Shown here: in pieces, positions 3,560 to 53,948 of the stretch
How the letters are laid out: each line of letters opens with the position of its first letter
Numbering within the stretch: the first letter of the stretch is position 1
Source: Nitrospira sp.
GTDB lineage: Bacteria > Nitrospirota > Nitrospiria > Nitrospirales > Nitrospiraceae
DNA length: 64,000 nt
Assembly (NCBI GenBank): GCA_030123605.1
Contig: CP126123.1
Coordinates: 3,873,237-3,937,236, forward strand
Direction: 5' to 3'
Position numbers and translations under genes: made by a program
The notes under the pieces: generated by a model
Told to the model about the DNA's origin: nothing
Database searches by the model: none
Seen by the model: only the letters and a program-made list of their open reading frames with translations

Positions 3560-3585
3560 TGTAAGACCTGACCGGCTGATTCGAC
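3560..3585 (+). promoter_or_regulatory. ECF-type promoter motif, copy 1 (TGTAAG-N16-CGAC)
   Basis: TGTAAG at 3560-3565 and CGAC at 3582-3585 are separated by exactly 16 bases, ending 24 bases before the ATG of the SMP-30 gene. The same pair with the same spacing occurs seven more times in the window, each time on the plus strand. The form (-35 of GTAA type, -10 of CGA type, 16-nt spacer) is typical of ECF sigma promoters. Confidence 0.8.
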
Positions 3586-6756: not shown

Positions 6757-6782
6757 TGTAAGAACCGTCGGCCTGAGACGAC
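6757..6782 (+). promoter_or_regulatory. ECF-type promoter motif, copy 2
   Basis: TGTAAG at 6757-6762 and CGAC at 6779-6782, with 16 bases between them. It points to the YHS-domain relic ~160 bp downstream. Confidence 0.7.
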
Positions 6783-6944
6783 GAAACAACTGGTCGGTCT
6801 ATGGACTCTGATTGGAAGGGTCGGCGAGAATGGAGGAGAGACCAGAGGGCAGAATCAGAGCCATAGTTGAGCGCCGGGCCGCCGACGATGGCGGCGGCGG
6901 GCGGAAGACGGAGTCACCACATGGAGAAGAGGGATGGCATGACG

Positions 6945-7141
6945 CTCGTTGCGAGTATGGGCTCGGCGTCGGAAAGAAATTCGTTGCGGTCCCTGAGGTC
7001 TGGAAGATCGTCGAAGGAACGCTCTACTTGAATCTGGACAAAGGAATCCAGGAGAAATGAGAAAAGGACATACCCGGCTACATCAAGAAAGGAGATGCCA
7101 ATTGGATCACGATGAAAGACAAGAGGCCCTCAGACTTGTGA
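6945..7141 (+). pseudogene. YHS-domain protein relic (premature stop)
   Basis: The frame encodes CEYGLGVGKKFVAVPEVW, then KIVEGTLYLNLDKGIQEK, a stop, and EKDIPGYIKKGDANW. This matches the C-terminal half of secreted YHS-domain proteins, where a Trp normally lies between IQEK and EKDIPGY. The TGA at 7058-7060 is thus a TGG-to-TGA change. The N-terminal half, including the expected YGG-C-A-G region and signal peptide, is not recognisable upstream. YHS proteins are thought to bind metal. An open frame begins at 6812 but its first 45 residues do not look like a protein. Confidence 0.75.
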
Positions 7142-7245: not shown

Positions 7246-7869
7246 ATGAACTCACCCGTCAGCGACATTGCGTTTACCGCGTCTGTGAAGGACGTTCAAC
7301 GACACATGGGGTCACGCAAACAGTATGAACGGATGGAGAAGAGTGGTGGCTGGGAGAATACGATCACCAGGGATCTATCCGACTTCATCGGCGAGCGCGA
7401 TTCGTTGTATTTGGCAACCGCCAGCGCGACAGGTCGGCCTTATATCCAGCACCGTGGGGGGCCAAAAGGGTTTCTCAAGGTGCTGGATGATCGCACTTTG
7501 GCCTTTGCCGATTTCGCGGGGAACCGTCAGTATATCTCAGTCGGGAACCTGGCCGAAAACAATCAAGCCTGTTTGTTTCTCATGGACTACGCCAGTCAAA
7601 CACGGATCAAAATCTGGGGAACGGCTGAGGCTGTCGATAATGATCCGCGCCTCATGAAGCACCTCACGGATCCGGGCTACAAGGGAAAACCGGAACGGGC
7701 CATTCGTTTTCATGTTGAAGCCTGGGACGGCAATTGCAGACAGCACATTCGACCGAGGTTTACGAAAGAGGAAGCCGATGCGCTTGTGCAGCCGCTACGT
7801 GATCGCCTCGCCGAATTGGAAGCCGAGAACAACGCGTTGAAGCGTCAAGCCGCAGCGCGTGCCAGGTAG
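7246..7869 (+). CDS. Pyridoxamine 5'-phosphate oxidase-like FMN-binding protein
   Basis: 207 residues with the split-barrel flavin-binding fold of the PPOX family: SLYLATASATGRPYIQHRGG, then LAFADFAGNRQYISVGNLAENN and ACLFLMDY. These are typical of the pyridoxamine phosphate oxidase-like subgroup annotated as general flavin reductases/oxidases rather than true PdxH. The last ~35 residues form a coiled coil (LRDRLAELEAENNALKRQ). GAGG precedes the ATG. Monocistronic. The role is probably reduction of a small molecule with FMN; substrate unknown. Confidence 0.85.
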   Translation: MNSPVSDIAFTASVKDVQRHMGSRKQYERMEKSGGWENTITRDLSDFIGERDSLYLATASATGRPYIQHRGGPKGFLKVLDDRTLAFADFAGNRQYISVGNLAENNQACLFLMDYASQTRIKIWGTAEAVDNDPRLMKHLTDPGYKGKPERAIRFHVEAWDGNCRQHIRPRFTKEEADALVQPLRDRLAELEAENNALKRQAAARAR

Positions 7870-17491: not shown

Positions 17492-17517
17492 CCTGTAAGA
17501 AGACGACCTTTCCCCCG
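17492..17517 (+). promoter_or_regulatory. ECF-type promoter motif, copy 3
   Basis: TGTAAG at 17492-17497 and CGAC at 17514-17517, spacer 16. It ends only 10 bases before the ATG of the GMC oxidoreductase gene, so transcription would start within a few bases of the start codon. Confidence 0.75.
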
Positions 17518-17527
17518 ACTACCTTCC

Positions 17528-19075
17528 ATGCCTTCCTCCACGCACTACGACCTCATCATCATCGGTACCGGCCCCGGCGGTGGGACGTTGGCCTACAAGC
17601 TGGCACCGTCGGGCAAGAAGATCCTCCTGCTGGAACGGGGCGGCTATCTGCCGCGCGAAAAGGACAATTGGAGTTCCAAGACCGTCTTCATCGACAACAA
17701 ATACAAGGCCAAGGAAACCTGGTACGACAAGGACGGCGGCCCGTTCCATCCCGGTATCCATTACAACGTCGGCGGCAATTCCAAAGTCTATGGCGCGGCG
17801 CTGCTGCGCATGAGGGCGCAGGATTTCGGCGAAGTGAAGCACCACGGTGGCATTTCTCCGGAATGGCCGATCCGCTATGAAGACTTGGAACCCTATTACA
17901 CACAAGCCGAGCACCTGTACCATGTGCACGGCAATCGCGGCGAAGATCCGACGGAACCGCAGGCCGGCGCACCCTACAAATATCCCGCGCTCACGCACGA
18001 GCCCCGCATCCAGGAACTGCACGAGGACTGGCAGAAGATGGGCTACCGACCCTTTCACCTGCCGGTCGGTGTGATGCTCAACGAACAACAGAAGGAACGA
18101 AGTGCCTGCATCCGTTGCAACACCTGCGACGGTTTTCCCTGTCTGGTGAATGCCAAGGCGGACTCGCAAGTGGTCTGTGTCGATCCGGCCCTGCAATATC
18201 CGAATGTGACGCTGATCACGCACGCGAAAGTGACCAAGCTTGAGACGAGCTCCTCAGGGCGTGAAGTGACCGGTGTCGTTGTGGAACGCCATGGGCAGAT
18301 GGAGACCCATCGGGCCGATATCGTGGTGGTGTCCTGCGGGGCGATCAATTCCGCGGCATTGCTGCTGAAGTCAGCCAACGACAAACATCCCAACGGCCTC
18401 GCCAACTCCTCCGGCCAGGTTGGACGAAACTACATGTGCCACAACAATTCGGCCATGCTGACCATCTCGAAGCGGCCCAATCCGACGGTCTTTCAAAAGA
18501 CGATCGGTTTGAACGACTTCTACCACGCGTCCGCCGACTGGGAATTCCCCATGGGCCATATCTCCATGATCGGCAAGTCGGACATGGATACGCTGCGGGC
18601 CGGCGCGCCGGCCTTCGCGCCCGGTCTCGCCCTCGATGTGATGGCCAAACATTCGCTCGACTTCTGGATGACGTCCGAAGACCTGCCCGATCCGAACAAT
18701 CGCGTGCTCGTCGGCAAAGATGGGAGCATCACGCTGGCCTATAGGGAAAACAATCTCGAAGCCCATCGCCGCTTGGCAGCCAAGCTCAAGAGCATGCTGA
18801 ACCATATCGGCTGCGAGGAACAGCTCCTGCCGACGCACCTCTACCTCGGGAAGAAGATCCCGATCGCGGGCACGGCCCACCAGTGCGGCACGGTGCGATT
18901 CGGCAGCGATCCGACGACCTCCGTGCTCGATGTGAATTGCAAGGCGCACGACCTCGACAATCTCTACGTCGTTGATGGGAGCTTCTTCCGGTCGAGTTCG
19001 GCGGTAAATCCCTCGCTGACGATCATCGCGAATGCGCTTCGAGTAGGCGATCATCTGCTCAGCCGATTAAACTGA
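17528..19075 (+). CDS. GMC-family FAD-dependent oxidoreductase
   Basis: 515 residues. YDLIIIGTGPGGGTLAYKLA at the N-terminus binds FAD. GGNSKVYGAALLRMR and ACIRCNTCDGFPCLVNAKAD (a Cys-rich insert typical of one GMC branch) follow. The C-terminus GTAHQCGTVRFG and AVNPSLTIIANALR gives the His/Asn active-site pair. GMC enzymes oxidise alcohols or sugars at C1, often to lactones, which fits the co-regulated lactonase at 3610. No SD is visible and ECF motif copy 3 lies immediately upstream, so the message may be leaderless. An N-terminal relic of a relative is at 13401. Confidence 0.88.
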   Translation: MPSSTHYDLIIIGTGPGGGTLAYKLAPSGKKILLLERGGYLPREKDNWSSKTVFIDNKYKAKETWYDKDGGPFHPGIHYNVGGNSKVYGAALLRMRAQDFGEVKHHGGISPEWPIRYEDLEPYYTQAEHLYHVHGNRGEDPTEPQAGAPYKYPALTHEPRIQELHEDWQKMGYRPFHLPVGVMLNEQQKERSACIRCNTCDGFPCLVNAKADSQVVCVDPALQYPNVTLITHAKVTKLETSSSGREVTGVVVERHGQMETHRADIVVVSCGAINSAALLLKSANDKHPNGLANSSGQVGRNYMCHNNSAMLTISKRPNPTVFQKTIGLNDFYHASADWEFPMGHISMIGKSDMDTLRAGAPAFAPGLALDVMAKHSLDFWMTSEDLPDPNNRVLVGKDGSITLAYRENNLEAHRRLAAKLKSMLNHIGCEEQLLPTHLYLGKKIPIAGTAHQCGTVRFGSDPTTSVLDVNCKAHDLDNLYVVDGSFFRSSSAVNPSLTIIANALRVGDHLLSRLN

Positions 19076-19129
19076 CCAGACATGAGAAATTGGAAATGTG
19101 GAATGAGAAATTGTAGGGGGCGCGACGCG

Positions 19130-20170
19130 ATGCAGGCCCTGAAGAAATTTTCCCATCGCCTCGTCTTCGTCATCTGCGCGGTGCATGCATCATGTTTCAC
19201 TGCTGGCGTCACCGCCGCGGAAACGTCTGCCGCCGTTCAGCACATTGCCACAATTGGTTTCACCGTCGCAGACATGGACCGCTCGATCGCCTTCTATCGC
19301 GACGTGCTGACGTTCAAGCCGGTCGGCGATGTCGAGGTGGATGGACCTGAATATGATCAGCTCTGGGGCGTCTTTGGAGCGCGGGCCCGCGTGGTCCGCA
19401 TGCAACTCGGCGAGCAGCAGTTGGAATTGACCGAATTTCTATCGCCACCGGATGTCCGGCCGATCCCCGTACCATCCTACAGCAACGATCTCTGGTTCCA
19501 ACACATCGCAATTGTGGTGCGCGACATGGAAGCGGCTTGGGCCCGGTTGCGCAAGTACCATGTTCGACAGATCTCGCCGCGCCCACAGACGATTCCCGCG
19601 TCGAATGCGGTGGCCGCCGGTATCAAGGCGATCAAGTTCCGCGATCCGGACGGGCACAGTCTCGAACTGCTCTGGTTCCCCGAAGGTAAGGGCCATTCGC
19701 GCTGGCATGCCGCGGGGGCTGAACTATTCCTGGGCATCGACCACACAGCCATGACCGTGCGCAGCACGGAGAACAGCGCGAAGTTTTATCGCGATCTGTT
19801 GGGCATGACTGTGGCCGGAGGAACACTCAACATGGGGGTGACCCAACAGTATCTCGACAGTTTGCCCGGCGCCCGTACGCGCGTGACCGGCTTCACGCCG
19901 AAAACGACCCCACCAGGCTTGGAGTTTCTCGAATATGAACTGCCCACAGCCGGCCGGCCGTTTCCCACCGATTCGCACCCGACCGATCTCTGGCATTGGC
20001 GGACGACGTTGGTCGTATCCGACATCGAGACAGCGGCGGCGGCGCTGAAAGACACCGCGCAGTTCCTGTCATCCGGCGTGGTGCTGCTCCCTGACAAAAG
20101 CCTGGGTTTCATGAAAGGCTTGCTGGTTCGCGACCCGGACGGACATGTGCTGCAACTGGTCTCGCCGTGA
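19130..20170 (+). CDS. Two-domain VOC/glyoxalase-family protein, probably exported
   Basis: 346 residues. A signal-like segment (LVFVICAVHASCFTAGVTAA) precedes two VOC domains. The first has VQHIATIGFTVADMDRSIAF, then KFRDPDGHSLELLWFP; the second has FLGIDHTAMTVRSTENSAKF, then LVRDPDGHVLQLVSP. The paired His/Glu positions suggest metal binding. The ATG at 19130 follows an AGGGGG sequence; an earlier ATG at 19082 is less likely. It follows the GMC gene by 54 bp and may be co-transcribed. Substrate unknown. Confidence 0.82.
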   Translation: MQALKKFSHRLVFVICAVHASCFTAGVTAAETSAAVQHIATIGFTVADMDRSIAFYRDVLTFKPVGDVEVDGPEYDQLWGVFGARARVVRMQLGEQQLELTEFLSPPDVRPIPVPSYSNDLWFQHIAIVVRDMEAAWARLRKYHVRQISPRPQTIPASNAVAAGIKAIKFRDPDGHSLELLWFPEGKGHSRWHAAGAELFLGIDHTAMTVRSTENSAKFYRDLLGMTVAGGTLNMGVTQQYLDSLPGARTRVTGFTPKTTPPGLEFLEYELPTAGRPFPTDSHPTDLWHWRTTLVVSDIETAAAALKDTAQFLSSGVVLLPDKSLGFMKGLLVRDPDGHVLQLVSP

Positions 20171-20202: not shown

Positions 20203-21024
20203 ATGACTCGATGGATCAAGATAACGCTGCTCGTGATTGTGGTCGGAGGCTCAGTCGCCCTCGGCCGGCAGATCGATTTCGAACGGGCGCTCAACCCCTC
20301 AGGTCTTGCCGACCTGCTTCACTCGTTAGGCCCCTGGGGGCCGGTCATGCTGATCCTTTCGATGGCCATGGCGGTGATCATTCCGCCGATTCCGAGTTTG
20401 CCGTTGGACCTTGCCTCCGGCGCCGCGTTCGGCCCGCTGCTGGGAACTGTCTATGCCGTCGTCGGGGCCGCCGTCGGGGCCATCCTGAGTTTCTTGATCG
20501 GGCGGGCGTTAGGCAGGGAAGGCATCTCCCGCCTGCTCAGGGTCGATGCCGTCTTTTGTGAGAAATGTGCGGATCACCATCTGGGGCTGCTGATCTTTCT
20601 CGCCCGGTTGATTCCCGTATGTTCGTTCGACGTGGTGAGTTACGGGGCGGGGTTCACCACGATCTCGTTGCGGACCTTTTCGCTGGCGACCATCGCAGGC
20701 ATGATTCCTCCCACGGTTGCCTTTACCTATCTGGGTAGTTCGATCGCCTCCGCTCAATGGTTGCTCATCGGAGCCGGCGGTTTCCTCGTGACCGTTTTCC
20801 TGCTCCTGCCGATGTGGTTGAAACGACATCGCTCGTCCCGACTTGCACAGTTGTTGTTTGGGGCGACGACGACTACAGTACCTATGACCACACAACCGGT
20901 TGAACCGGCAGTCTGTCCGGCCTGCGGGAAACCTTTTCCGCCCGCCGTTCCGACGCTCGTCTCCCCCGATCCGAGTCAATCTGCCGAGCCGCCGGGCTTG
21001 CTGGCCTGTAAGGGAAGGTGCTAG
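20203..21024 (+). CDS. TVP38/TMEM64 (VTT-domain) membrane protein with C-terminal zinc-ribbon-like tail
   Basis: 273 residues. A first TM helix is followed by the VTT core, with [20 protein letters not shown], then [20 protein letters not shown] and [23 protein letters not shown] proteins are DedA-like and implicated in lipid scrambling or transport. The tail is unusual: [10 protein letters not shown] and ending LACKGRC give four cysteines in two pairs after the last TM helix, a possible zinc ribbon. It overlaps nothing, but ends 26 bp before the activator gene and probably shares a transcript with it. Confidence 0.82.
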
Positions 21025-21050
21025 GCTTGCATCCGCCTGCGAGGCTCTCC

Positions 21051-23861
21051 ATGATCCCTCTGGTCGCAGACGCTGAAAAGGAACCCTTCAAGACCGCGCT
21101 GGAATCCCTCCGCGAGAGCGAAGAGTTCAAGACCCGCCTCATCGAAGGCAGCCGCGATTGCATCAAAATTCTGGATCTCGACGGTCGGCTCCTCTCGATG
21201 AACGCCGGGGGGATGGCCGCGCTGGAAATTTGCGATGTGGGATCGATCGTCGGCACCTTCTGGGTCGAATTCTGGCAGGGTGCGGACAAAGAAGCGGCTC
21301 GGCAAGCAATCGAGGCGGCTCGTCAGGGCGGAGTCGGCCGGTTCGTCGGCTTTTTCCCAACCACACAGACCAACGAACCCCGCTGGTGGGACGTCGTCGT
21401 CAATGCCATTAAGGATACGGAAGGCAGGCCTGAGAAGCTGCTGGTCGTTTCACGCGATGTGACCGAACTCAAGCAGGCCGAAGAAATTCTTCGGATTGCG
21501 ACCGAGGAAACGGCCTCCGCGACCGGTACCGATTTCTTTCAGCTCCTCGTCCGACACCTCGCCCTCACCCTCCATGTCCGCTACGCGTTCGTCGCGGAAT
21601 GCACGAATGCCGCGAAGACCCACGTGCGGACCTTGGCGTTTTGGAGGAACAATGCGTTCGGCGACAACGTCGCCTATCCATTGAAAGGGACACCCTGCGA
21701 GCCTGTCGTGGGCGGCGAAGTCTGTTCCTTCCCGGAACGGGTCCAAACCCTGTTCCCCGAGGATCGCGATTTGGTATCGCTGGCGGCCGAAGGCTATGTC
21801 GGCGTGCCGCTCCGCACCGCCGGCGGTGACATGCTCGGACATCTGGCGGTGATCGACGACAAACCGCTGTATCTCCAGCCCCATCACATGGGGATACTGA
21901 AAATCCTTGCGGCCCGCGCCGGTGCGGAGCTTGAACGCGAACATGCCTACAGAGACGTCCAGCGGCTGAACGTAGAACTCAGCACCCTGCTCGAAATCAA
22001 TCGCGCCATCAACCGCCATCTGAATCGCGATGAACTGTTCGGGGCGCTTGCCGACTGCTTGAAGAAGGTAGTGCCGACCGAACGGTTCGGGATCGAGCTG
22101 CCGATCCAGGACGACAGGCTCCAGGGGCATATCCTTTCTCAGCATCCGGCGGAGGGGGGCTCGACGCAACCGACCCTGTTGCCTGCGGCAGGCACGGCCT
22201 GCGATTGGGTGATCCGGGCTCGGCAGTGGTACGTTGCATCCTCCTGCGATGAGTTTCGAGAACGTTTTCCGGTGACGTTCCAGGTGATGTCGAGCGCGGG
22301 CATGGAATCGCTCTGCGCGCTCCCGTTGGTGAGCGGGGGGAACAGTCTCGGCGCGCTGTTTTTCATGACGAAGGAGAAGGGCTCCTACGATCACCTCAGC
22401 CGTGAGTTTCTCGATCAAGTGGCCGGTGCCGTGGCGGTGGCGCTGGACAATTGTCTTGCCCACGAGAAATTACGACGCGAGGGGATCCAGGCGCTGGCAG
22501 ACAGCGAGGAACGGCTCCGCGATCTCTTCGACGAGGCACCGATCGCCTATGTGAACGAAGGGCTGGATTCCCGTTTTATCCGAGCCAATCGGGCCGCGAT
22601 GCGTAGTCTGGGCATCACGCCGGACGAGGTCGCCGGCACCTACGGCAGCTCGTTCGTGCCTGATACGCCGGATGCTCAGCGCCGTCTCAAAGAAGCGTTC
22701 GCGTCCGTCGGCCGCGGTACCGACACCAGCGGTGTCGTGCTCGAACTGCGGCGCAAGGACAACGGCAAGCCGCTCTGGATTCAATGGTGGTCCAAGCCCG
22801 ATCCTGGCGGCACCTACACGCGGACGATGTTCGTCGACATTACCGAGCGAGTGCTGATGGAACAGGAGAAGGCTCGTTTGGAAGCGGCGAACGTTTACCT
22901 GCAGGAGGAAATCAAGACCGAACACAACTTTGACGAGATCATCGGCACCTCGAGTGCCATCAAGAAAGTGTTCCAGGCGATCGAGAAGGTGGCGGCGACC
23001 GATGCGACCGTGTTGATCACCGGTGAGACCGGTACCGGCAAGGAGTTGATCGCCCGAGCCATCCACCATTTGAGCCACCGGAAAGACGGGGTGCTGATCA
23101 AGGTCAACTGTGCGGCGATTCCGGCCGGGTTGATCGAGAGCGAACTCTTCGGGCACGAGAAGGGAGCCTTCACCGGAGCGCTCGCGCGGAAGGTCGGCCG
23201 GTTCGAGCTGGCCGATCGCGCCACGATCTTTCTGGACGAGGTCGGTGAAATTCCGTTGGAGTTGCAGACGAAGCTCCTGCGCGTATTGCAGGAGGGCGAG
23301 TTCGAGCGGTTGGGCAGCACGAAGACGTTGAAGGTGACAGTGCGCGTGATCGCCGCCACGAATCGCGATCTGGATAGGGAAGTGCGCGAGCGGCGATTCC
23401 GGTCCGACCTCTTCTACCGGTTGAAGGTGTTTCCGATCCAGCTCCCGGCATTGCGTGATCGGACACAGGACATTCAGCTATTGGTGTCCTATTTCGTAAA
23501 AAAATTTTCCGCGACGATGGGCAAGAAGGTCGAGTCGGTGCCGGCCAAGGCCATGGAGATGCTGAAGCTGTACCCTTGGCCGGGGAACATCCGTGAATTG
23601 GAACATGTCATCGAGCGCGCGGTGATTCTAAGCCAGGATCGGGAACTCGAATTGGGCGATTGGATGCCGAAGGAGCCGGCCACGACCGGCATCGGACCGG
23701 CTGCCACATTGGAAGAGGTGGAGCGCGCACATATCATTGCCGTCTTGGCCCAGACCAATTGGCGGGTGAGCGGCGACAAGGGCGCGGCCAAAATTCTCGG
23801 ACTCAATCCCACCACGCTCGAAGCCCGCATGAAGAAGCTGGGCATCACTCGCCCGGCCTGA
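21051..23861 (+). CDS. Sigma-54-dependent transcriptional activator with PAS-GAF-GAF-PAS sensor
   Basis: 936 residues. Order: PAS (about 20-140; [20 protein letters not shown]), GAF (about 155-290), second GAF (about 310-475), PAS (about 490-610), AAA+ domain from about 630, Fis-type HTH at the end ([20 protein letters not shown]). The AAA+ domain has Walker A GETGTGKE, the sigma-54-contacting GAFTGA and Walker [10 protein letters not shown], so it should activate sigma-54 RNA polymerase. No receiver domain; signals are probably sensed by the GAF/PAS domains, as in FhlA- or NorR-like activators. ATG at 21051 with GAGG upstream. Likely target: the sigma-54 promoter at 24111. Confidence 0.92.
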
Positions 23862-23967
23862 AGCGCGTCTCTCGTGAATCGTCGTTCGTAGTTCGCATCC
23901 CGGTCCATTCCTTTTTCCCCACCATAAGCCATACGTCATAAGCCATCGGCTCTTGACCTGCTCTCGT

Positions 23968-24000
23968 CCCAACATTTTGTGAATGTCCCAACATATTGGG
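23968..24000 (+). promoter_or_regulatory. Tandem upstream activator boxes (CCCAACATATTGGG type)
   Basis: CCCAACATATTGGG at 23987-24000 is a perfect 5-bp inverted repeat with a 4-base centre. CCCAACATTTTGTG at 23968-23981 is a partial copy 19 bp upstream, so both face the same side of the helix. They lie 110-140 bp before the sigma-54 promoter, the usual place for enhancer-binding proteins. Confidence 0.65.
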
Positions 24001-24110
24001 AGCCTCTGTCGGGAATCTCTGTTGCCTCCGCCCCCTGTCACGCCTCAGGAAGATCCGTTCTTCAAATGTTTCACCGTCTTAATCGGTGCTCGCTCCTCCT
24101 CGACCCATTC

Positions 24111-24124
24111 GGCATGGGCCTTGC
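24111..24124 (+). promoter_or_regulatory. Sigma-54 promoter of the STAS-ECF operon
   Basis: GGCATGGGCCTTGCT: GG at 24111-24112 and GC at 24123-24124 are exactly 10 bases apart, matching the -24/-12 form TGGCAC-N5-TTGCW at most positions. The start point would be near 24136, ~20 bases before the STAS ATG. Confidence 0.7.
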
Positions 24125-24156
24125 TGAATAGCCCACGCAAGAAGGGAACGCGACAG

Positions 24157-24426
24157 ATGTTGAAAATCACGACGGCAGAACGGAACGGGCAGACGGTCGT
24201 GCTCAAGCTCGAAGGCAAGATCATCGACCAGTGGGCCGCGCTCCTCGATCGCGAGTGCAGGGCGGCGCTACTGCACCATGGTCGGGTCGAGTTGGATTGT
24301 GCCGCGGTGGATTTTTTGGATCAGCGGGGGATCGAGGTGATGAAACGCCTGCCTCGCAAACAGGTCACACTTATCGGCGCTCCTGGATTCGTGATGGAGC
24401 TGCTGCAGACAGGAGGTCGGTCATGA
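24157..24426 (+). CDS. STAS-domain protein
   Basis: 89 residues: NGQTVVLKLEGKIIDQWAAL, then RVELDCAAVDFLDQRGIEVM. The fold matches STAS domains (anti-anti-sigma-like), with D-F-L-D in place of the usual D-S-S loop, so the classic phosphorylatable Ser is absent. The ATG at 24157 follows AAGGGA; upstream in-frame starts lie before the sigma-54 promoter. Its stop overlaps the sigma gene start (ATGA). A regulatory partner of the sigma factor or a membrane protein is possible; inferred from position. Confidence 0.75.
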   Translation: MLKITTAERNGQTVVLKLEGKIIDQWAALLDRECRAALLHHGRVELDCAAVDFLDQRGIEVMKRLPRKQVTLIGAPGFVMELLQTGGRS

Positions 24427-25127
24427 ACGCCATTGCCATCACCCAGGAACATTCGTCGGTACAGGCTCAGTCACGAATATTGAATGGAGCGCGAGTGCCG
24501 GAGTCCGGTCCGATCGGCGGCGAGCGGCAATTGCTCGCCCGGCTTCGACAGCGTGATGCGGCGGCCTTCGACGAGTTGGTCGTCAAACATCATGGTGCCC
24601 TGATCCGCATGGCGATGGGCCATGTGGCAGACCGTGAAACGGCGGAGGAAGTGGTCCAGGACACCTGGATGGCGGTCATCGAAAGCCTGGATCGATTCGA
24701 GGGCCGATCGTCGCTGCGGACCTGGATCTTCGGGATTCTGATTCACAAGGCGAAGGATCGCGGCGTGCGCGAGAAGCGTCACACGACGTTCTCGGCCTTC
24801 GAATCCTACGATGACGAACAGGAAGAAGCGGTGGATCCCTCACGGTTTCATCTGCTGGGAGAGTGGGCCGGGCGGTGGGCCCTGCCGCCGCAACCCTGGG
24901 ATGACCGGACGCCGGAAGCCCTCCTGGCCAACCAACAGGTCGTGGCGGCGATGCAACAGGCTCCGGCGACATTGAAGGAGGTCCTTGTGCTTCGTGATGT
25001 CGAGGGGCTGGAATCGAAAGAGATCTGCGAGTTGTTGAAGATCACGGAGACGAATCTCTATGTGCGGTTGCATCGCGCGCGCGAGCGGGTGCGGCAAGCG
25101 ATCGAAGCCTACGTCGGGGAACGGTGA
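24423..25127 (+). CDS. ECF-type RNA polymerase sigma factor
   Basis: 234 residues. Region 2: DAAAFDELVVKHHGALIRMA, then AEEVVQDTWMAVIESLDRFE and SSLRTWIFGILIHKAKDR. Region 4: QAPATLKEVLVLRDVEGLES, then LKITETNLYVRLHRARERVR. No region 3, so an RpoE-like ECF sigma. A 45-residue linker with acidic and Trp-rich stretches separates the regions. It is translationally coupled to the STAS gene, and the zinc-finger anti-sigma gene follows after 90 bp. It is the best candidate for recognising the TGTAAG-N16-CGAC motifs. Confidence 0.92.
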   Translation: MNAIAITQEHSSVQAQSRILNGARVPESGPIGGERQLLARLRQRDAAAFDELVVKHHGALIRMAMGHVADRETAEEVVQDTWMAVIESLDRFEGRSSLRTWIFGILIHKAKDRGVREKRHTTFSAFESYDDEQEEAVDPSRFHLLGEWAGRWALPPQPWDDRTPEALLANQQVVAAMQQAPATLKEVLVLRDVEGLESKEICELLKITETNLYVRLHRARERVRQAIEAYVGER

Positions 25128-25158
25128 GGGTGAGGTGTAGGCTGAGGACAATCAAGCA

Positions 25159-25184
25159 TGTAAGGAATGTCCGGGAGAGGAGAC
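25159..25184 (+). promoter_or_regulatory. ECF-type promoter motif, copy 4 (variant -10 AGAC), before the anti-sigma gene
   Basis: TGTAAG at 25159-25164, 16 bases, AGAC at 25181-25184. It lies between the ECF sigma and anti-sigma genes, so the sigma factor could drive its own inhibitor separately. Confidence 0.65.
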
Positions 25185-25217
25185 TCAAGGGTAGATCACG
25201 TTACCGGAGGCCCCGCT

Positions 25218-25475
25218 ATGAACCACCATCCGTCTCATGAGGGCACAGCGGCACTGACCTGTCGCGAGGCCGCCGCATGGACATCGGTCTATCTCGATGC
25301 GTGTCTCCACGACTCCGGCCAGGCCCGCATGACAGTCCATGTGGCGGCCTGTGCCGCTTGTCGCGCCTATGTCGAACAGATCAGGCTCGTGCGTGAGGCG
25401 CTGAAAGGCCTTCCTTATACGATGCCTTCGTCCGAGTTGCGTCTTTTTGTGCAGCAACGGTTCGCCGAGCGGTGA
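25218..25475 (+). CDS. Zinc-finger (ZAS-type) anti-sigma factor
   Basis: 85 residues. LTCREAAAWTSVYLDACLHD, then MTVHVAACAACRAYVEQIRL contains the H-x3-C-x2-C zinc site of anti-sigma factors, with the preceding Cys as a further ligand. No TM helix, so it acts in the cytoplasm, where such proteins often sense redox state by zinc release. The ATG at 25218 has GGAGG 7 bases upstream. Next gene is cydA, 84 bp away. Confidence 0.85.
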   Translation: MNHHPSHEGTAALTCREAAAWTSVYLDACLHDSGQARMTVHVAACAACRAYVEQIRLVREALKGLPYTMPSSELRLFVQQRFAER

Positions 25476-25559: not shown

Positions 25560-26900
25560 ATGGAGACCGCATTGCTGTACGACCGTCTGCAATTCGCAGT
25601 CACGGTGACTTTCCATTATCTGTTTCCACAATTGACGATGGGCGTGGCCCTGTTGCTCGTCTATTTCAGAACCAGGGCACTCACAAGCGGCGAGGAACAT
25701 TATCATCGCGTCGCCCTGTTCTGGACGAAAATTTTTGCCTTGAGCTTCGCCTTCGGCGTGGTCACCGGTATTCCGCTGGAATTTCAGTTCGGCACCAACT
25801 GGGCGAAATTTTCCAACTTCGCCGGCGGCGTCATCGGCCAGATGTTGGCGATGGAGGGGATGTTCGCGTTCTTTCTGGAATCGTCATTCATCGGCATCCT
25901 GCTCTACGGCGACAAGCGGTTCAGTCTGCGTGTGCAATGGTTCGCCGCCCTGATGCTGTTTCTCGGCTCGTGGCTCTCGGGCTATTTCATCCTCGCGACG
26001 AACGCCTGGATGCAACATCCTGTTGCCTATACGGTCGCGCCGGACGGACGGCTGTTCGTCGACAGTCTCTCCGGCCTGCTCACGAATCCCTGGCTATTCT
26101 GGCAATATACGCACAACATGACCGCCGCAGTGGTGACCGGGTCGTTCGTCATGGCGGCGGTCGGGTCGTTCTATCTCTTGTCCGCTCGACACGTGGCCTA
26201 CGCGAAGACGTTCCTTCGCACCGGCGTCGTTTCCGGCGCGATCAGCATCACGTTGATGGTTTTCCCCACCGGCGATGGCAACGCCAAACAGGTGTTCGAA
26301 CATCAGCCGGTGAAGGGCGCGGCTTTCGAAGGGCTGTTTAAGTCTGAGCGAGGCGCGGGACTCCTGCTGATCGGCCAACCGAACATGGAAACCATGACGA
26401 TCGACAATCCGTTGGAAGTGCCGGCAGCGCTCAGTTTCTTGGTGTACGACGAACTTTATGCCGAGGTGAAAGGGCTTGATGCGTTTCCGCGCGAAGACTG
26501 GCCTGACAACTTGCCGCTGCTCTACTATTCGTATCATGTGATGGTCGGCCTCGGGACCATCCTCATGGGCGTGATGGGCCTCGCGATGCTCTGGCTCTGG
26601 CGCGGCCGGCTGTTCGAAGCGAAATGGCTGCTCTGGCTCGTGATGCTGAGTGCGCCGTTCCCCTACATCGCGACGACGGCCGGATGGATGACGGCGGAAC
26701 TCGGCCGCCAACCTTGGCTGGTCTATGGGGTGCTGCGCACCGCCGAAGGCGCGTCGCCGTTGGTGCATTCCGGGAACGCGCTGTTCACGTTGCTCGGCTT
26801 CCTTGGTATCTACCTCATGCTGGGGCTGCTCTTCCTGTTTCTGATCGTCGAGACGATCCACCAGGGCCCGGCCGACCATCCAACGGCAGGGCACGCGTGA
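25560..26900 (+). CDS. cydA: Cytochrome bd quinol oxidase subunit I
   Basis: 446 residues with about nine TM helices. His19 (VTFHYLFPQL) matches the haem b595 ligand; the N-terminal region LQFAVTVTFHYLFPQLTMG, GMFAFFLESSF and the GRQPWLVYG motif identify CydA. The quinol-binding Q-loop is short, as in the CioA (cyanide-insensitive) branch. The enzyme reduces O2 to water with quinol in the membrane and often protects against oxidative or nitrosative stress. Overlaps cydB by 1 base (TGATG). Confidence 0.95.
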   Translation: METALLYDRLQFAVTVTFHYLFPQLTMGVALLLVYFRTRALTSGEEHYHRVALFWTKIFALSFAFGVVTGIPLEFQFGTNWAKFSNFAGGVIGQMLAMEGMFAFFLESSFIGILLYGDKRFSLRVQWFAALMLFLGSWLSGYFILATNAWMQHPVAYTVAPDGRLFVDSLSGLLTNPWLFWQYTHNMTAAVVTGSFVMAAVGSFYLLSARHVAYAKTFLRTGVVSGAISITLMVFPTGDGNAKQVFEHQPVKGAAFEGLFKSERGAGLLLIGQPNMETMTIDNPLEVPAALSFLVYDELYAEVKGLDAFPREDWPDNLPLLYYSYHVMVGLGTILMGVMGLAMLWLWRGRLFEAKWLLWLVMLSAPFPYIATTAGWMTAELGRQPWLVYGVLRTAEGASPLVHSGNALFTLLGFLGIYLMLGLLFLFLIVETIHQGPADHPTAGHA

Positions 26901-27934
26901 TGGAAACGTTCTGGTATGCCGCTGTGACGTTGATGCTGACCGTCTATGTCGTCCTCGATGGCTTCGACTTCGGCGTCGGCATCGTCTATCCCTTCGCGGC
27001 GAAAACGGAAATGGATCGGCGTACGGCGCTCGGCGCCATCGGGCCGGTCTGGAATGGAAACGAAGTTTGGTTGATCGCAGCCGGCGGCTTGCTCTTCTTC
27101 GCCTTTCCCAAGGCCTATGCAGCGGGATTCAGCGGGTTTTATCTCGCGCTCATCATCGTGCTGTGGCTGTTGATCGGGCGCGGGCTGGCGCTCGAACTGC
27201 GGTCGCATATCGACCATGACCTGTGGCGGCAATGGTGGGATTTCGTGTTTGCGATTTCCAGCACGTTGCTGGCCGTCGTCTTCGGCGCGGCGTTGGGTAA
27301 TCTGATCCGCGGCGTGCCGTTGAATCAAGACGGCTATTTCTTTGTCCCGCTCTGGACGAATTTTATGACAGGGCCGCAGCCGGGTATTCTGGATTGGTTC
27401 ACGGTCTTGATTGGCCTCACCAGTGCAACTCTTTTGGCATTGCACGGCGCGAATTATCTGGCGATGAAGACTGAGCGCGAGTTGCAGGCCCAGGCCAGGA
27501 CTATCGCCAGATTGGCTGGGTTTGCCACGGCCGGCTTCGTGGTGCTCGTGCTGACCGTTGCCCCCTTCGTTCAGCCATCGTTTGGTCTCAACTATGGAGC
27601 CCATCCGATCGGTGCCGTTTTTCCGGTCATCGGTATGGGCGCGTTGGTTGCGACGATTGCCCTGCGAAGACGAGACCAGGATGCCTCTGCGTTCTATGCC
27701 TCCTGCCTTATGATCCTCGCGCTTCTCGCCAGCACGGCTTGGGGGTCGTATCCCAACATCCTGATCGCCACGGCGGATCCGTCCCGTAGCCTGACGGTCT
27801 TCAATGCGACCGCCGGAGTCTACGGCATGCACATCGGCCTCTGGTGGTTTTTGATCGGCTTCGGCCTGGTCATCGCCTATCAGGTCTATGCGCACCGTGT
27901 CTTTTGGGGAAAAGTCACGGTGGACAGGCACTGA
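26900..27934 (+). CDS. cydB: Cytochrome bd quinol oxidase subunit II
   Basis: 344 residues, about eight to nine TM helices: YVVLDGFDFGVGIVYPFAAK, then GPVWNGNEVWLIAAGGLLFF are strongly conserved in CydB. Overlapping start with cydA ensures equal expression. No CydX-type small subunit is obvious between cydB and the next gene. Confidence 0.95.
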   Translation: METFWYAAVTLMLTVYVVLDGFDFGVGIVYPFAAKTEMDRRTALGAIGPVWNGNEVWLIAAGGLLFFAFPKAYAAGFSGFYLALIIVLWLLIGRGLALELRSHIDHDLWRQWWDFVFAISSTLLAVVFGAALGNLIRGVPLNQDGYFFVPLWTNFMTGPQPGILDWFTVLIGLTSATLLALHGANYLAMKTERELQAQARTIARLAGFATAGFVVLVLTVAPFVQPSFGLNYGAHPIGAVFPVIGMGALVATIALRRRDQDASAFYASCLMILALLASTAWGSYPNILIATADPSRSLTVFNATAGVYGMHIGLWWFLIGFGLVIAYQVYAHRVFWGKVTVDRH

Positions 27935-27952: not shown

Positions 27953-27978
27953 CGTAAGACTCTTTTAGGTTTTTCGAC
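27953..27978 (+). promoter_or_regulatory. ECF-type promoter motif, copy 5 (variant CGTAAG)
   Basis: CGTAAG at 27953-27958, 16 bases, CGAC at 27975-27978. It lies just after cydB and 61 bp before the glucose dehydrogenase-like ATG. Confidence 0.7.
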
Positions 27979-30645: not shown

Positions 30646-30891
30646 TCAGAAATTGACGGCGGGCACATCTAACATCTGGTCAGGCTGCCGCGCTCGTTCG
30701 AAGATATCGTGGAAGCTTTGATCCATGCGCTTGAGCACATCGGGGGTGAAATATTTTTCTCCGCATTGCCGACAGACTCCGGCAGGCACGTTGCGAAGTA
30801 CGAGCAAGTGATCCCGGCGCCGATAATCGTAGCTGATGTGCCGTTCCTCTACCTCGCCGCCACAGAACGTGCAGTCTGCATAGGTGGTCAT
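30646..30891 (-). CDS. YgiT-type zinc-finger protein (antitoxin-like)
   Basis: 81 residues. CTFCGGEVEERHISYDYR, then VPAGVCRQCGEKYFTPDVLK gives two C-x2-C pairs typical of YgiT/MqsA N-terminal zinc domains. The C-terminal HTH of full MqsA is absent, as is common when the partner is DUF4258. Overlaps the DUF4258 gene by 4 bp. Confidence 0.82.
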   Translation of the reverse strand: MTTYADCTFCGGEVEERHISYDYRRRDHLLVLRNVPAGVCRQCGEKYFTPDVLKRMDQSFHDIFERARQPDQMLDVPAVNF

Positions 30892-31214
30892 GGCCTTGCT
30901 CCTCTGGTCCTCATATCTTTCCACTTGGGCGGCCTGGGGATATATACCGTAATCATCCTCAGTGTCTTCTCAGTCAGCTGTTTTCTCGTGGCCCATCCTA
31001 ACACAACATGAATCGGTTTGACTCCCGCCATCCCGCCGACGAGACAACTCGGGCCGCGTGGGTCATTCGGATACTCTTCGATGAGTTCTCCTTGGAGCAC
31101 CGCCTTTTCTATCTCATCGATATCCAAGTCATCTTCAAGCCGTTCCTGCTGAGCATGAATACTGACTTCATAACGACCGTCTCGAACCAGTTGTCGTATT
31201 TCGTCAATGGTCAT
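30888..31214 (-). CDS. DUF4258-family protein (toxin-like partner)
   Basis: 108 residues: EIRQLVRDGRYEVSIHAQQE, then LDIDEIEKAVLQGELIEEYP and GGMAGVKPIHVVLGW. DUF4258 is BrnT/RelE-like and often precedes YgiT-type genes, forming type II TA-like pairs. First gene of the pair, coupled by ATGA overlap. Confidence 0.82.
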   Translation of the reverse strand: MTIDEIRQLVRDGRYEVSIHAQQERLEDDLDIDEIEKAVLQGELIEEYPNDPRGPSCLVGGMAGVKPIHVVLGWATRKQLTEKTLRMITVYIPRPPKWKDMRTRGARP

Positions 31215-31307: not shown

Positions 31308-31333
31308 TGTAAGAATCCTGTCTCTCGTCCGAC
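31308..31333 (+). promoter_or_regulatory. ECF-type promoter motif, copy 6 (orphan, left of the IS3 element)
   Basis: TGTAAG at 31308-31313, 16 bases, CGAC at 31330-31333. No intact gene follows before the IS element at 31487; the Met-rich peptide gene truncated on the far side of the IS is the likely former target. Confidence 0.65.
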
Positions 31334-31560
31334 TCTTGTTTGTACACCCTCCATGGGGTTCAATGGCTCCTGGATATTCTCGGCAATGTTGCGAAGGCCG
31401 ATGAGCACCGGTCGGATGTGAGGAAGCGAACGACCGTACGCGAGTGACGCTGATGACTTGGCGTATCAAAGGGGGAAGGATATCACTGACCTTCCCCCCG
31501 AAAACTAGACCATTGGCATGGAAGTTTACCTGTGCTGAGATAGGCCCCACAGGAGGGGCC

Positions 31561-31827
31561 ATGACGCGAAAACGCCACACGGAGGAACAGATCATTGCGG
31601 TGCTCAAGGATGCCCAGGCGGGCATTGGGGTCCCAGAGCTCTGCCGCAAACACGGGATCTCGGATGCCACCTTTTATAAGTGGCGGGCGAAATATGCCGG
31701 GCTCGAAGTGAGTGATGTGAAGAAGCTCCGCCAACTGGAGGACGAAAACCGGCGGCTCAAACAGATGGTGGCAGACCAAGCGCTGGACATCCAAGCGTTG
31801 AAAGCGATCAACGCAAAAAACTGGTAG
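31561..31827 (+). CDS. IS3-family transposase OrfA
   Basis: 88 residues: [20 protein letters not shown], then [20 protein letters not shown] is the helix-turn-helix of IS3/IS911 OrfA, followed by a leucine-zipper-like [20 protein letters not shown]. The run A-AAA-AAC at 31815-31821, six bases before its stop codon, is a classic -1 slippery site. Confidence 0.92.
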
Positions 31828-32690
31828 GGCCCAAGGCGAAGCGAGCGGCAGCTCAGTGGAGCACCGAGCGCTTTGGGCTCAGTCAGCGACGGGTATGCCG
31901 TCTCCTGGACCTCGATCGCCAGACGCTCCGGTATCGCCGTCGCCGCCAGGAGGATGAGCCGCTACGGACGCGGATTCGGGAGATTGCCGAGAGCAAGCGG
32001 CGGTACGGTTGTCCCCGGATCTATGTGCGCTTACGGCGTGAGGGCTGGCGCGTGAATCATAAGAAGGTGGAACGGATCTATTATCGCGACGAGGGGCTGT
32101 CGTTACGGCGACGGCGGCGGAAGAAGCTGGCCGCGGTGCCGCGGGTCGCGCTCCCACGGCCGACGCAGCCGGGGCGCTGTTATGCGCTGGATTTCGTGCA
32201 TGATCGGCTAGTCACGGGACGACGGTACAAATGTTTGACGATGACCGATCTGTGTTCCAAGGAAGTCCCGGTGATTGAGGTGGATGTGTCGATCGGCGGG
32301 GCACGGGTATGCCGGATTCTTGACCGGCTGTTTCATACACGGCCGTTCCCGGAGACGTTGATCCTGGACAACGGCCCAGAATTCGCCGGGACCGCCTTGG
32401 ATGCCTGGGCCGTCCAGCACGGCGTGCACCTGCACTTCATTCAGCCGGGGAAGCCAGTGCAGAATGCGTTTATCGAGAGCTTCAACGGCAAGTTTCGCGA
32501 TGAATGTCTCAACGAGCATTGGTTTCTGACCTTGCAGGAAGCGCAGCTGGTCATCGAATCATGGCGGCGGGAATATAACGAGGAGCGGACGCACAGTGGA
32601 ATTGGGGATCTGACACCCCAGGAGTTCATTCGTAACCATCAAGCCGGGGCTTATCGGGCACAGGACTCAACTACCTTGGCTGTGGTGTAA
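31818..32690 (+). CDS. IS3-family transposase OrfB (DDE integrase domain, made by -1 frameshift)
   Basis: Open from the slippery site: [20 protein letters not shown], then [20 protein letters not shown] and the rve core. Catalytic residues: D in [12 protein letters not shown] in [12 protein letters not shown] in [17 protein letters not shown]. OrfB has no good start of its own near the junction, so an OrfAB fusion is expected to be the active transposase. Confidence 0.9.
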
Positions 32691-33029: not shown

Positions 33030-33055
33030 TGTAAGAAATGTCTCTGCACGGCGAC
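33030..33055 (+). promoter_or_regulatory. ECF-type promoter motif, copy 7
   Basis: TGTAAG at 33030-33035, 16 bases, CGAC at 33052-33055, 37 bases before the ATG of the cytochrome b561-like gene. Confidence 0.8.
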
Positions 33056-33092: not shown

Positions 33093-34004
33093 ATGCCATC
33101 ACTGATTGAGAACAGCGCAGACACGCAGATTCCGGCTCTTGATGCAGTGGTATCCGCTGAGCACGCAACCGTTCCGGCGCCTCCCATCATCCCCGTAGCC
33201 GTCAAGGAACGGGTCTATCGGCACAAGCTTCCCGTTCGCCTGGGCCATTGGCTCAACGTGGTCTGTCTGTTCATCTTGATCAGCAGCGGTCTCCAGATTT
33301 TCAACGCACATCCTGCGCTCTACTGGGGCGATCGATCCGATCGAGACAAGTCCCTGCTCTCGATCCGTCCGATGAGGACCGACAGCGGCGAGATGAAAGG
33401 CGTGACGACGATCTTGGGGCATCAATTCGATACGACCGGGGTCCTCGGCTATTCGAACGGCTCAGGCCGCGCCTTCCCCGCTTGGGCGACGGTCCCCAGC
33501 GCCAAATGGCTCGCGATGGGACGGCAGTGGCATCTCTTCTTCGCGTGGTTGTTCGTCATCAACGGAGTGATCTTTGCGACCTACGCCTTCGTGAGCCGCC
33601 ACTTCAAAAAAGATCTCTTGCCGACCGGCCAGGATTTGAAGCAGATCCCGCAAGCGGTGAAGGACCATCTTGTGCTGCGCCACCCGACGGGTGATGAAGC
33701 CAAGCGCTACAACGTCCTGCAGAAGCTGGCCTATGTCGGCGTGATCTGCGGGCTTGCGCCGCTGATCGTCTTGACCGGCCTCACGATGTCGCCGACGATC
33801 GATACGGCCTTCCCGTGGCTGTTGACGATCTTTGGCGGCAGGCAATCCGCGCGGACGATCCACTTTATCGCCTGTTTCTCGTTTGTCGGGTTTATCGTGA
33901 TCCACGTGTCACAAGTCATTCTGACAGGGTTCTTCAACAACATCCGCTCGATGATCACGGGATACTTTGTGATCAAACATGAAGGAGCCAGCCATGGAGT
34001 CTAA
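33093..34004 (+). CDS. Cytochrome b561 / thiosulfate-reductase-type b-haem membrane subunit
   Basis: 303 residues. After a soluble N-terminus, VYRHKLPVRLGHWLNVVCLF begins a four-helix di-haem bundle, with His ligands in RLGHWLN, GRQWHLFFAWL, and FIVIHVSQVI and TIHFIACFSF near the end. It should pass electrons between quinol and a periplasmic partner. It overlaps the molybdoenzyme gene by 11 bp, so they form a membrane anchor-catalytic pair like YedZ-YedY or PhsC-type systems. SD is AGGAGAG. Driven by ECF motif copy 7. Confidence 0.88.
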   Translation: MPSLIENSADTQIPALDAVVSAEHATVPAPPIIPVAVKERVYRHKLPVRLGHWLNVVCLFILISSGLQIFNAHPALYWGDRSDRDKSLLSIRPMRTDSGEMKGVTTILGHQFDTTGVLGYSNGSGRAFPAWATVPSAKWLAMGRQWHLFFAWLFVINGVIFATYAFVSRHFKKDLLPTGQDLKQIPQAVKDHLVLRHPTGDEAKRYNVLQKLAYVGVICGLAPLIVLTGLTMSPTIDTAFPWLLTIFGGRQSARTIHFIACFSFVGFIVIHVSQVILTGFFNNIRSMITGYFVIKHEGASHGV

Positions 34005-34764
34005 ACGTGCAATGGAACGACGAGCCTTCTTGAAGGGTACGGCTGGAGCAGCAAGCCTCCTTGCCCTCGCCGGCTGCGACAACCTGACACAGAGCGGGTG
34101 GTTTCCCAACATCCTCCATCAGGCGGAGAAGCTGACCGATGCCGTTCAACGCGCAATCACGCCTGTCAATGCCCTGGCAAAAGAATATAGCGAGGCAGAG
34201 ATCTCGACAGTCTTTCCGGCGAACGGCAATACCGATCCCGGCACGCAAGACTACGCTGAAATGGCTCAAGACACTTTCATCGACTGGAAAGTCACGGTTG
34301 CTGGACTGGTGTCCGCACCGACCGCCTTTTCACTGGCCGCGATCAAGGCTATGCCTGTCAGGACGCAGATCACCAGACATGATTGCGTCGAGGGATGGAG
34401 CGCCATCGGCCAATGGACCGGGGTGCCGCTGGGCGATCTGCTGCGCCCGGTCCAGCCCTTGCCGAGGGCGAAGTATGCCGTCTTCCATTGCGCCGATGTA
34501 GACGACGAAGGTATTTCCTACTATGAGAGCATGGCGCTGGCCGATTGCTACCATCCGCAGACGATCTTAGCCTATGAATTGAACGGCAAGCCACTCGACA
34601 TTCCCCACGGCGCGCCGCTACGTCTCCGCTTTGAACGCCAACTCGGGTACAAGCAGGCGAAGTATGTGATGCGCATCGAGCTGGTGGAATCGCTGGAGGG
34701 AATCGGCGGGGGCAAGGGGGGATACTGGGAAGATCAGGGGTATGAGTGGTACGCCGGGATATAG
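33994..34764 (+). CDS. SUOX-fold molybdopterin enzyme, MsrP(YedY)-like, Tat-exported
   Basis: 256 residues. RRAFLKGTAGAASLLALAGC is a Tat signal that ends in a lipobox-like Cys. The catalytic part contains RHDCVEGWSAIGQWTGVPLG, close to the C-V-E-x-W motif of MsrP, with Cys as the Mo ligand. There is no C-terminal dimerisation domain, as in MsrP. MsrP reduces methionine sulfoxide in periplasmic proteins using electrons from a haem partner; here the cytochrome b561 gene upstream would serve. The ATG at 33994 has AAGGAG upstream. A role as sulfite or other S-oxide enzyme remains possible. Confidence 0.82.
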   Translation: MESKRAMERRAFLKGTAGAASLLALAGCDNLTQSGWFPNILHQAEKLTDAVQRAITPVNALAKEYSEAEISTVFPANGNTDPGTQDYAEMAQDTFIDWKVTVAGLVSAPTAFSLAAIKAMPVRTQITRHDCVEGWSAIGQWTGVPLGDLLRPVQPLPRAKYAVFHCADVDDEGISYYESMALADCYHPQTILAYELNGKPLDIPHGAPLRLRFERQLGYKQAKYVMRIELVESLEGIGGGKGGYWEDQGYEWYAGI

Positions 34765-36504: not shown

Positions 36505-36530
36505 TGTAAGGACCAGTCCGTGACGGCGAC
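36505..36530 (+). promoter_or_regulatory. ECF-type promoter motif, copy 8
   Basis: TGTAAG at 36505-36510, 16 bases, CGAC at 36527-36530, 21 bases before the sulfite-oxidase-like ATG. Confidence 0.8.
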
Positions 36531-53750: not shown

Positions 53751-53948
53751 CGGATTCAACATTCCTGCTCAAACTCGTTGGGTTCCGACGCAAGGCACCT
53801 GCTGAAAAACACCGTACCGTCAATATGTTAGGTGGTGTGTCATAGGGGGGAGTCCCTTGGCATAAGGTCTGCTTACAGAGGACGTATCTTTATCGGCAAG
53901 GAAACCGAACATGATTTTCCCCGAAACCTGCGGCTCTGCGCGATCGTG

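Follow-up and report, generated by a model that had tools for sequence, protein, structure and literature searches.

A probable two-stage sigma-54-to-ECF transcription switch with negative and positive loops, conserved in the Nitrospira family

Gene order and proteins of the locus

The locus lies in a 64,000-nucleotide stretch of a Nitrospira genome (the whole stretch that was analysed, hereafter the window), and the host genome consists of a single contig of 4.32 Mb. On the forward strand, the genes for a GMC-type oxidoreductase, a glyoxalase-like protein (GLO), a VTT-domain protein and a sigma-54 activator (EBP) are followed by those for a STAS-domain protein, an ECF sigma factor, a zf-HC2 anti-sigma factor (ZAS), CydA, CydB and a glucose-dehydrogenase-like protein. 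The initial annotation had named a sigma-54 activator, a sigma-54 promoter, a STAS protein, an ECF sigma factor, an ECF motif and an anti-sigma factor, and every one of these elements was present in the window. The named relatives that carry the locus are nearly all Nitrospira, N. moscoviensis among them. Nitrospira are major nitrite oxidisers, and to our knowledge little is known about their regulation beyond a few operons.

The GMC gene (17528..19075; Pfam PF05199/PF00732; start taken from the sequence) is the first of a tightly spaced run. It is separated by 6 nt from the gene of GLO, a protein of the glyoxalase/dioxygenase superfamily (19082..20170; PF00903), and this by 32 nt from the gene of the VTT-domain membrane protein (20203..21024; PF09335), which overlaps the start of the EBP gene (21018..23861). 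The EBP has 947 aa and combines PAS and GAF sensor domains with an AAA+ domain (PF00158, 2.5e-72), in which the GAFTGA motif could be read in the translation, and a Fis-type helix-turn-helix (PF02954). Its domain matches included no receiver domain. The host genome has one rpoN gene.

The STAS gene (24157..24426, 89 codons) matched PF01740 with 25.0 bits against a cut-off of 22.6. Its stop codon shares an ATGA with the start of the next gene (24423..25127), which encodes a protein of 234 aa with regions sigma2 and sigma4 only (PF04542 and PF08281), the composition of an ECF sigma factor. A search of the STAS profile against the sequences of solved structures gave no match at E values up to 0.01, and it was the fold search that placed the protein: the model (pLDDT 87) has the SpoIIAA/RsbV fold, and its best PDB matches were SpoIIAA and RsbV with TM scores of 0.74-0.81. 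Among 395 genomes of the phylum, strong STAS matches (E < 1e-37) were confined to the Nitrospira family, and four weaker ones, G354, G395, G401 and G408, belonged to further families of the order.

The anti-sigma gene (25218..25475) encodes a protein of 85 aa that matched NF052368 at 1.9e-9, under the cut-off of that model, and its Pfam zf-HC2 score was likewise under the cut-off. The zinc motif of ZAS proteins is H/C-x25-H-x3-C-x2-C, and the corresponding residues C15, H41, C45 and C48 were invariant in 30 of 30 sequences. By eye, we saw no hydrophobic membrane stretch in the protein, and it had no match among the sequences of solved structures at E values up to 1. We infer that it binds and inhibits the neighbouring ECF sigma factor. 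Downstream of it lie the genes for a CydA-type cytochrome bd oxidase subunit I (25560..26900; PF01654) and a CydB-type subunit II (26900..27934; PF02322). Farther along the window, two small overlapping genes are found on the reverse strand (30646-31214), and we take one to resemble a zinc-finger antitoxin and the other a DUF4258-like toxin.

Promoters of the sigma factor and anti-sigma genes

A -24/-12 box of the sigma-54 type, TCGGCATGGGCCTTGCT, is located at 24109-24125 on the forward strand with two mismatches to YTGGCACGNNNNTTGCW, and transcription is predicted to start near 24136. Within the window alone such a box is near chance: 42 matches were found at up to three mismatches when 55 were expected, and three further matches had two mismatches or fewer. 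The box becomes significant because it is conserved across loci, although the window by itself gives a chance level. In all 33 loci with a STAS gene it lies 47-64 nt upstream of the STAS start codon, with GG and TTGC invariant (GG-N10-GC), and the observed score was reached by just 14 of 3300 shuffles. It was also present in 30 of 30 loci of a second set that overlaps the first. The 33 loci comprise 25 distinct box sequences, because some loci represent the same genome twice (e.g. L007/L035 and L008/L037). Six loci (L039, L048, L052, L055, L060 and L063) carry an additional gene inserted between the EBP gene and the sigma-54 promoter; it has about 446-459 codons, and the N-terminus of its product is signal-like.

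Upstream of the box are two dyads that resemble activator sites, at 23967..23982 and 23986..24001, 19 bp apart from start to start; the two form a direct repeat, TCCCAACATTTTGTGA / TCCCAACATATTGGGA, and the region marked in the initial annotation starts at this repeat (about 23968). Such paired dyads, similar to TCCCAA(C/T)AT..TTGGGA and spaced by 18-19 bp, were found in 32 of the 33 loci at a distance of about 110-125 bp from the box; the exception, L062, provides only 123 nt of upstream sequence. When 0-1 mismatch was allowed, the pattern occurred in the host genome solely at the 23967/23986 pair. Between the dyads and the box there is an IHF-like site (24069..24081, forward strand, two mismatches). 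A match to WATCAANNNNTTR with no more than one mismatch lies in this interval in 22 of the 33 loci, compared to about 2.8% of shuffles, which suggests an involvement of IHF. The conserved box, the upstream activator sites, the rpoN gene and a nearby AAA+ activator with GAFTGA and a Fis-type helix-turn-helix are together the features of an EBP-regulated sigma-54 promoter. The sigma-54 promoter that had been proposed ahead of the STAS and ECF sigma genes is thus well borne out by the comparison of genomes. The EBP would appear to be the dedicated activator of this promoter, with the dyads as its putative binding sites.

The ECF promoter predicted for the anti-sigma gene, TGTAAGGAATGTCCGGGAGAGGAGACTCA, occupies 25159-25187 on the forward strand, between the ECF sigma and ZAS genes, where the initial annotation had noticed an ECF motif at 25159. 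The consensus of this gap is TGTAAG[AG]A...GAC, with 17 bases from TGTAAG to GAC. It was exact in 30 of the 31 loci with a ZAS match (L040 has one mismatch), which agrees with a copy of the motif that belongs to the anti-sigma gene. In the 27 distinct sequences, positions 8 and 29 were always A, though neither belongs to the search pattern. The N17 spacing predominates: across 38 loci, N17 gave 64 matches on the forward strand and one on the reverse strand, and the spacings N13-N16 and N18-N21 gave 14 altogether. In the host genome there were 26 matches for N17, compared to 3 for N15, 7 for N16, 6 for N18 and 9 for N19. Taken alone, the motif is near chance, and it is the cross-genome comparison that makes it convincing as a candidate promoter.

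The predicted ECF regulon and its loops

A second copy of the motif (17494..17519, forward strand) precedes the GMC-GLO-VTT-EBP run in the window. In six of six genomes (G000, G003, G017, G019, G021 and G028) the motif stands both ahead of this run and ahead of the ZAS gene. Conservation of the order in related genomes was a check that the initial annotation had proposed, and the ATGA overlap of the STAS and ECF sigma genes is retained in 33 of 33 STAS loci. The GMC start codon (17528 in the window) lies 34 nt after the start of the motif in five of the six genomes and about 50 nt in G017. With such a short distance, the GMC mRNA may be leaderless; an EcfF promoter of B. japonicum likewise has a start that overlaps an annotated ATG (PMC3420878). 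G017 has two ECF motifs about 1.4 kb apart (L148/L149), and a GMC-like start comes after both, which points to a GMC gene that is duplicated or a remnant.

Because an ECF promoter is predicted ahead of a run that ends with the activator gene in all six genomes, a positive loop probably opposes the loop through the anti-sigma factor. The GMC-EBP run is presumably a single transcript. In G021, a gap of 492 nt precedes VTT and in G028 a gap of 978 nt precedes EBP, so that co-transcription is uncertain there and EBP could be transcribed from a separate promoter. No copy of the ECF motif was found between 17495 and 25160 in the window. The initial annotation described a sigma factor that one sigma system activates and that its own regulon turns off. 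The promoter architecture, with its conservation and co-occurrence, is consistent with this description; however, the description is incomplete, as an ECF promoter also precedes the activator run.

Eight of the 26 copies of TGTAAG-N17-GAC in the host genome lie on the forward strand within the 39 kb that hold the ECF locus (p = about 2e-9, computed post hoc). Besides those already described, predicted ECF promoters on this strand precede an SMP-30/gluconolactonase-like gene (motif 3560..3585, gene 3610), the b561 and molybdopterin-oxidoreductase genes (motif 33030..33055, genes 33093-34764) and a sulfite-oxidase-like gene (motif 36505..36530, gene 36552), and a CGTAAG variant (27953..27978) precedes the glucose-dehydrogenase-like gene (28039). 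Outside the window, 15 of the 18 N17 matches are inside reading frames of at least 100 aa on either strand, and the regulon therefore seems to be mainly local.

Some copies of the motif have less regular surroundings. At 6757-7140 of the window, the sequence after an ECF motif resembles, by eye, a decayed YHS-domain gene, with a PNPOx-like gene farther downstream at 7246. At 31308-31830, the motif precedes a region in which no gene is intact and a transposase-like frame; an insertion has perhaps left this promoter stranded. On the reverse strand at 53821-53877, a TGTAAG-N17-GAC match lies about 20 nt from CCTAACATATTG, a half-dyad resembling the activator site. A further cluster, with three ECF motifs in about 2.2 kb, recurs in several genomes (L144 in G019, L155 in G003, and contig C212 of G015).

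The abundance of the motif was related to the presence of the STAS-ECF genes. In the family, the mean per genome was 12.6 in 54 STAS-positive genomes and 5.6 in the 121 others (p = 6e-15), where the weak STAS matches G040, G068, G131 and G164 were counted as without; the reversed motif, used as a control in the same 175 genomes, gave p = 0.87. In the genus, the means were 12.5 in eight genomes with close ECF orthologues and 4.6 in 21 others (p = 2.4e-5), and the off-spacing control gave p = 0.075. These p-values ignore kinship and overstate independence, because the genomes are related. Some family genomes without the STAS gene are also rich in the motif, such as G066 with 14 matches.

The proposed switch and its relation to known systems

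Gene order, the motifs, the conservation of the motifs and their co-occurrence are read directly from the genomes. From these data, we consider it likely that the locus forms a conserved two-stage sigma-54-to-ECF transcription switch of the Nitrospira family with a negative and a positive loop. The EBP, a one-component activator with PAS and GAF sensors, would bind the paired dyads, the DNA would bend over the IHF-like site, and the STAS-ECF sigma-54 promoter would fire. The ECF sigma factor, co-produced with the STAS protein, would then transcribe from TGTAAG-N17-GAC promoters, which we infer to be the sites that it reads. One of its targets would be its own zinc-finger anti-sigma factor, closing the negative loop, and another the GMC-GLO-VTT-EBP run, which carries its own activator and would close the positive loop. 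The cytochrome bd-type oxidase would be a target via read-through or via its own motif copy, and further local redox targets would be the glucose-dehydrogenase-like, the b561 and molybdopterin oxidoreductase, the sulfite-oxidase-like and the gluconolactonase-like genes. The physiology of the switch would be redox or respiratory stress.

A simpler arrangement, which we regard as rather unlikely, is a linear cascade in which one sigma-54 transcript covers STAS, ECF sigma, anti-sigma and cydAB, the internal ECF promoter is only a minor booster, and the EBP gene has a constitutive promoter, so that no functional positive loop exists. We found no terminator between the ECF sigma and ZAS genes, so the sigma-54 transcript may carry the anti-sigma gene as well; the ZAS gene is often close behind the ECF sigma gene, and the gaps in G021 and G028 also fit a cascade of this kind. 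However, the gap between the ECF sigma and ZAS genes varies from tens to more than 500 nt, while the nearly invariant motif in it keeps to a distance of 57-99 nt upstream of the ZAS alignment start, and the motif is found ahead of the GMC-EBP run in six of six genomes. It is also conceivable that a different ECF sigma factor reads the TGTAAG-N17-GAC sites and that the STAS-linked one has other targets. Two genomes without the STAS-ECF set, G022 and G026, have 8-9 such sites, and another ECF may therefore read a similar motif; the genus genomes without the STAS-linked ECF contain more distant ECF genes, with best identities mostly of 30-36%. We nevertheless judge this explanation improbable, as the motif density follows the STAS-ECF set over the 175 genomes, the densest cluster surrounds the STAS-linked ECF gene in the host genome and its relatives, and a motif ahead of the adjoining anti-sigma gene is in the usual autoregulated position. 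In G022, a TGTAAG-N17-GAC site lies about 120 nt ahead of the match of a related ECF gene (L013, G022:C8:1518), which shows 33% identity.

The role of the STAS protein was considered separately. It might act as an antagonist in a classical partner switch, with a SpoIIAB/RsbW-type kinase from another locus to phosphorylate it, and the SpoIIAA and RsbV structures that best match its model are in kinase complexes. In the alignment column that we take, from SpoIIAA, to hold the usual phospho-serine (after the conserved Asp), Ser was found in 0 of 22 sequences, Arg or Lys in 20 and Gln or Gly in two, and a scan of eight neighbouring genes revealed no kinase gene. We therefore rejected classical partner switching on account of the missing serine and give the version with a distant kinase very little credence. 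Instead, the STAS protein is most likely a non-phosphorylated helper, which would either antagonise the anti-sigma factor or assist the sigma factor. Within the preferred two-stage switch, a tentative extension is that both loops form a latching two-sigma switch, in which a translationally coupled STAS protein without a phosphosite, as a new kind of antagonist dedicated to the ECF anti-sigma factor, lets the first burst of sigma factor escape the anti-sigma factor.

A promoter motif, an activator site, a regulon and a circuit are hereby defined, as predictions, across the Nitrospira family. The paired positive and negative loops that join sigma-54 and ECF control, if true, would provide a case from nature of a switch that is possibly bistable, and the coupling of STAS and ECF genes points to a possible new way of antagonising an anti-sigma factor. 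In the open-licence literature, we found no description of this circuit or of a Nitrospira ECF regulon. A transcriptome paper on N. moscoviensis reports sigma-54 regulators near the nxr genes, and its main text contains no word that starts with "ECF" (PMC6606698).

The predicted promoter can be compared to that of the ECF16 group, to which Caulobacter sigma-F, Bradyrhizobium EcfF and Sinorhizobium RpoE7 belong (PMC3420878, PMC3511200, PMC6180224). The Nitrospira motif, written as TGTAAG-N16-CGAC, resembles the ECF16 promoter tGTAACc-N16-CGAA, and a YedY-like sulfite oxidase belongs to the sigma-F regulon of Caulobacter. However, the -35 element ends with G in Nitrospira and with C in ECF16, and the anti-sigma factor is a small zf-HC2 protein in the former and of the membrane OsrA type in the latter; sigma-54 control is absent from the ECF16 descriptions compared. 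Membership in ECF16 was rejected on the promoter letters and on the 85-aa zf-HC2 neighbour in place of an OsrA-type protein.

The initial annotation had regarded the coupling of a STAS protein to an ECF sigma factor as unusual. In the btr locus of Bordetella, genes for a STAS protein (BtrV), an ECF sigma factor (BtrS) and an anti-sigma factor (BtrA) occur together as in Nitrospira (PMC7498569), and this combination of genes thus has a precedent. However, as this locus is described there, a kinase and a phosphatase are the partners of BtrV, the STAS and sigma genes do not form a two-gene operon, and the activator is BvgA rather than a sigma-54 system. What does look specific to the Nitrospira family, in the genomes searched, is the two-gene STAS-ECF operon. 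In the plasmid collection, the closest ECF sigma factors outside Nitrospira were those of Mycobacterium kansasii and Sinorhizobium plasmids (about 42% identity). Like the Nitrospira gene they adjoin a zf-HC2 gene, but no adjoining STAS gene was seen, and there was no TGTAA[CG]-type motif on the strand scanned. Three lone ECF paralogues of Nitrospira (L058, L059 and L061) have no STAS gene, sigma-54 box or dyads. With the lone paralogues, the plasmid pairs and strong STAS matches restricted to the family, it looks as though the STAS coupling and the sigma-54 control were added, at the level of the family, to a pair of ECF sigma and anti-sigma factors.

Among known sigma-54-to-ECF cascades, that of HrpL in Pseudomonas syringae is the closest, and this type of cascade therefore has a precedent. 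The hrpL gene encodes an ECF sigma factor and is transcribed from a sigma-54 promoter under HrpR/HrpS, with an activator site and an IHF site, and it is subject to negative feedback, in which the HrpL holoenzyme at hrpJ occludes the activator site (PMC5263251). The Nitrospira ECF gene is likewise behind a sigma-54 promoter, as predicted from conservation. Compared to what is described for HrpL, the Nitrospira locus differs in its anti-sigma gene with an ECF promoter, in the STAS protein coupled to the sigma factor, and in the activator gene behind an ECF promoter. Furthermore, no ECF motif was found to overlap the activator site in the window, and the negative feedback would instead be exerted through the anti-sigma factor.
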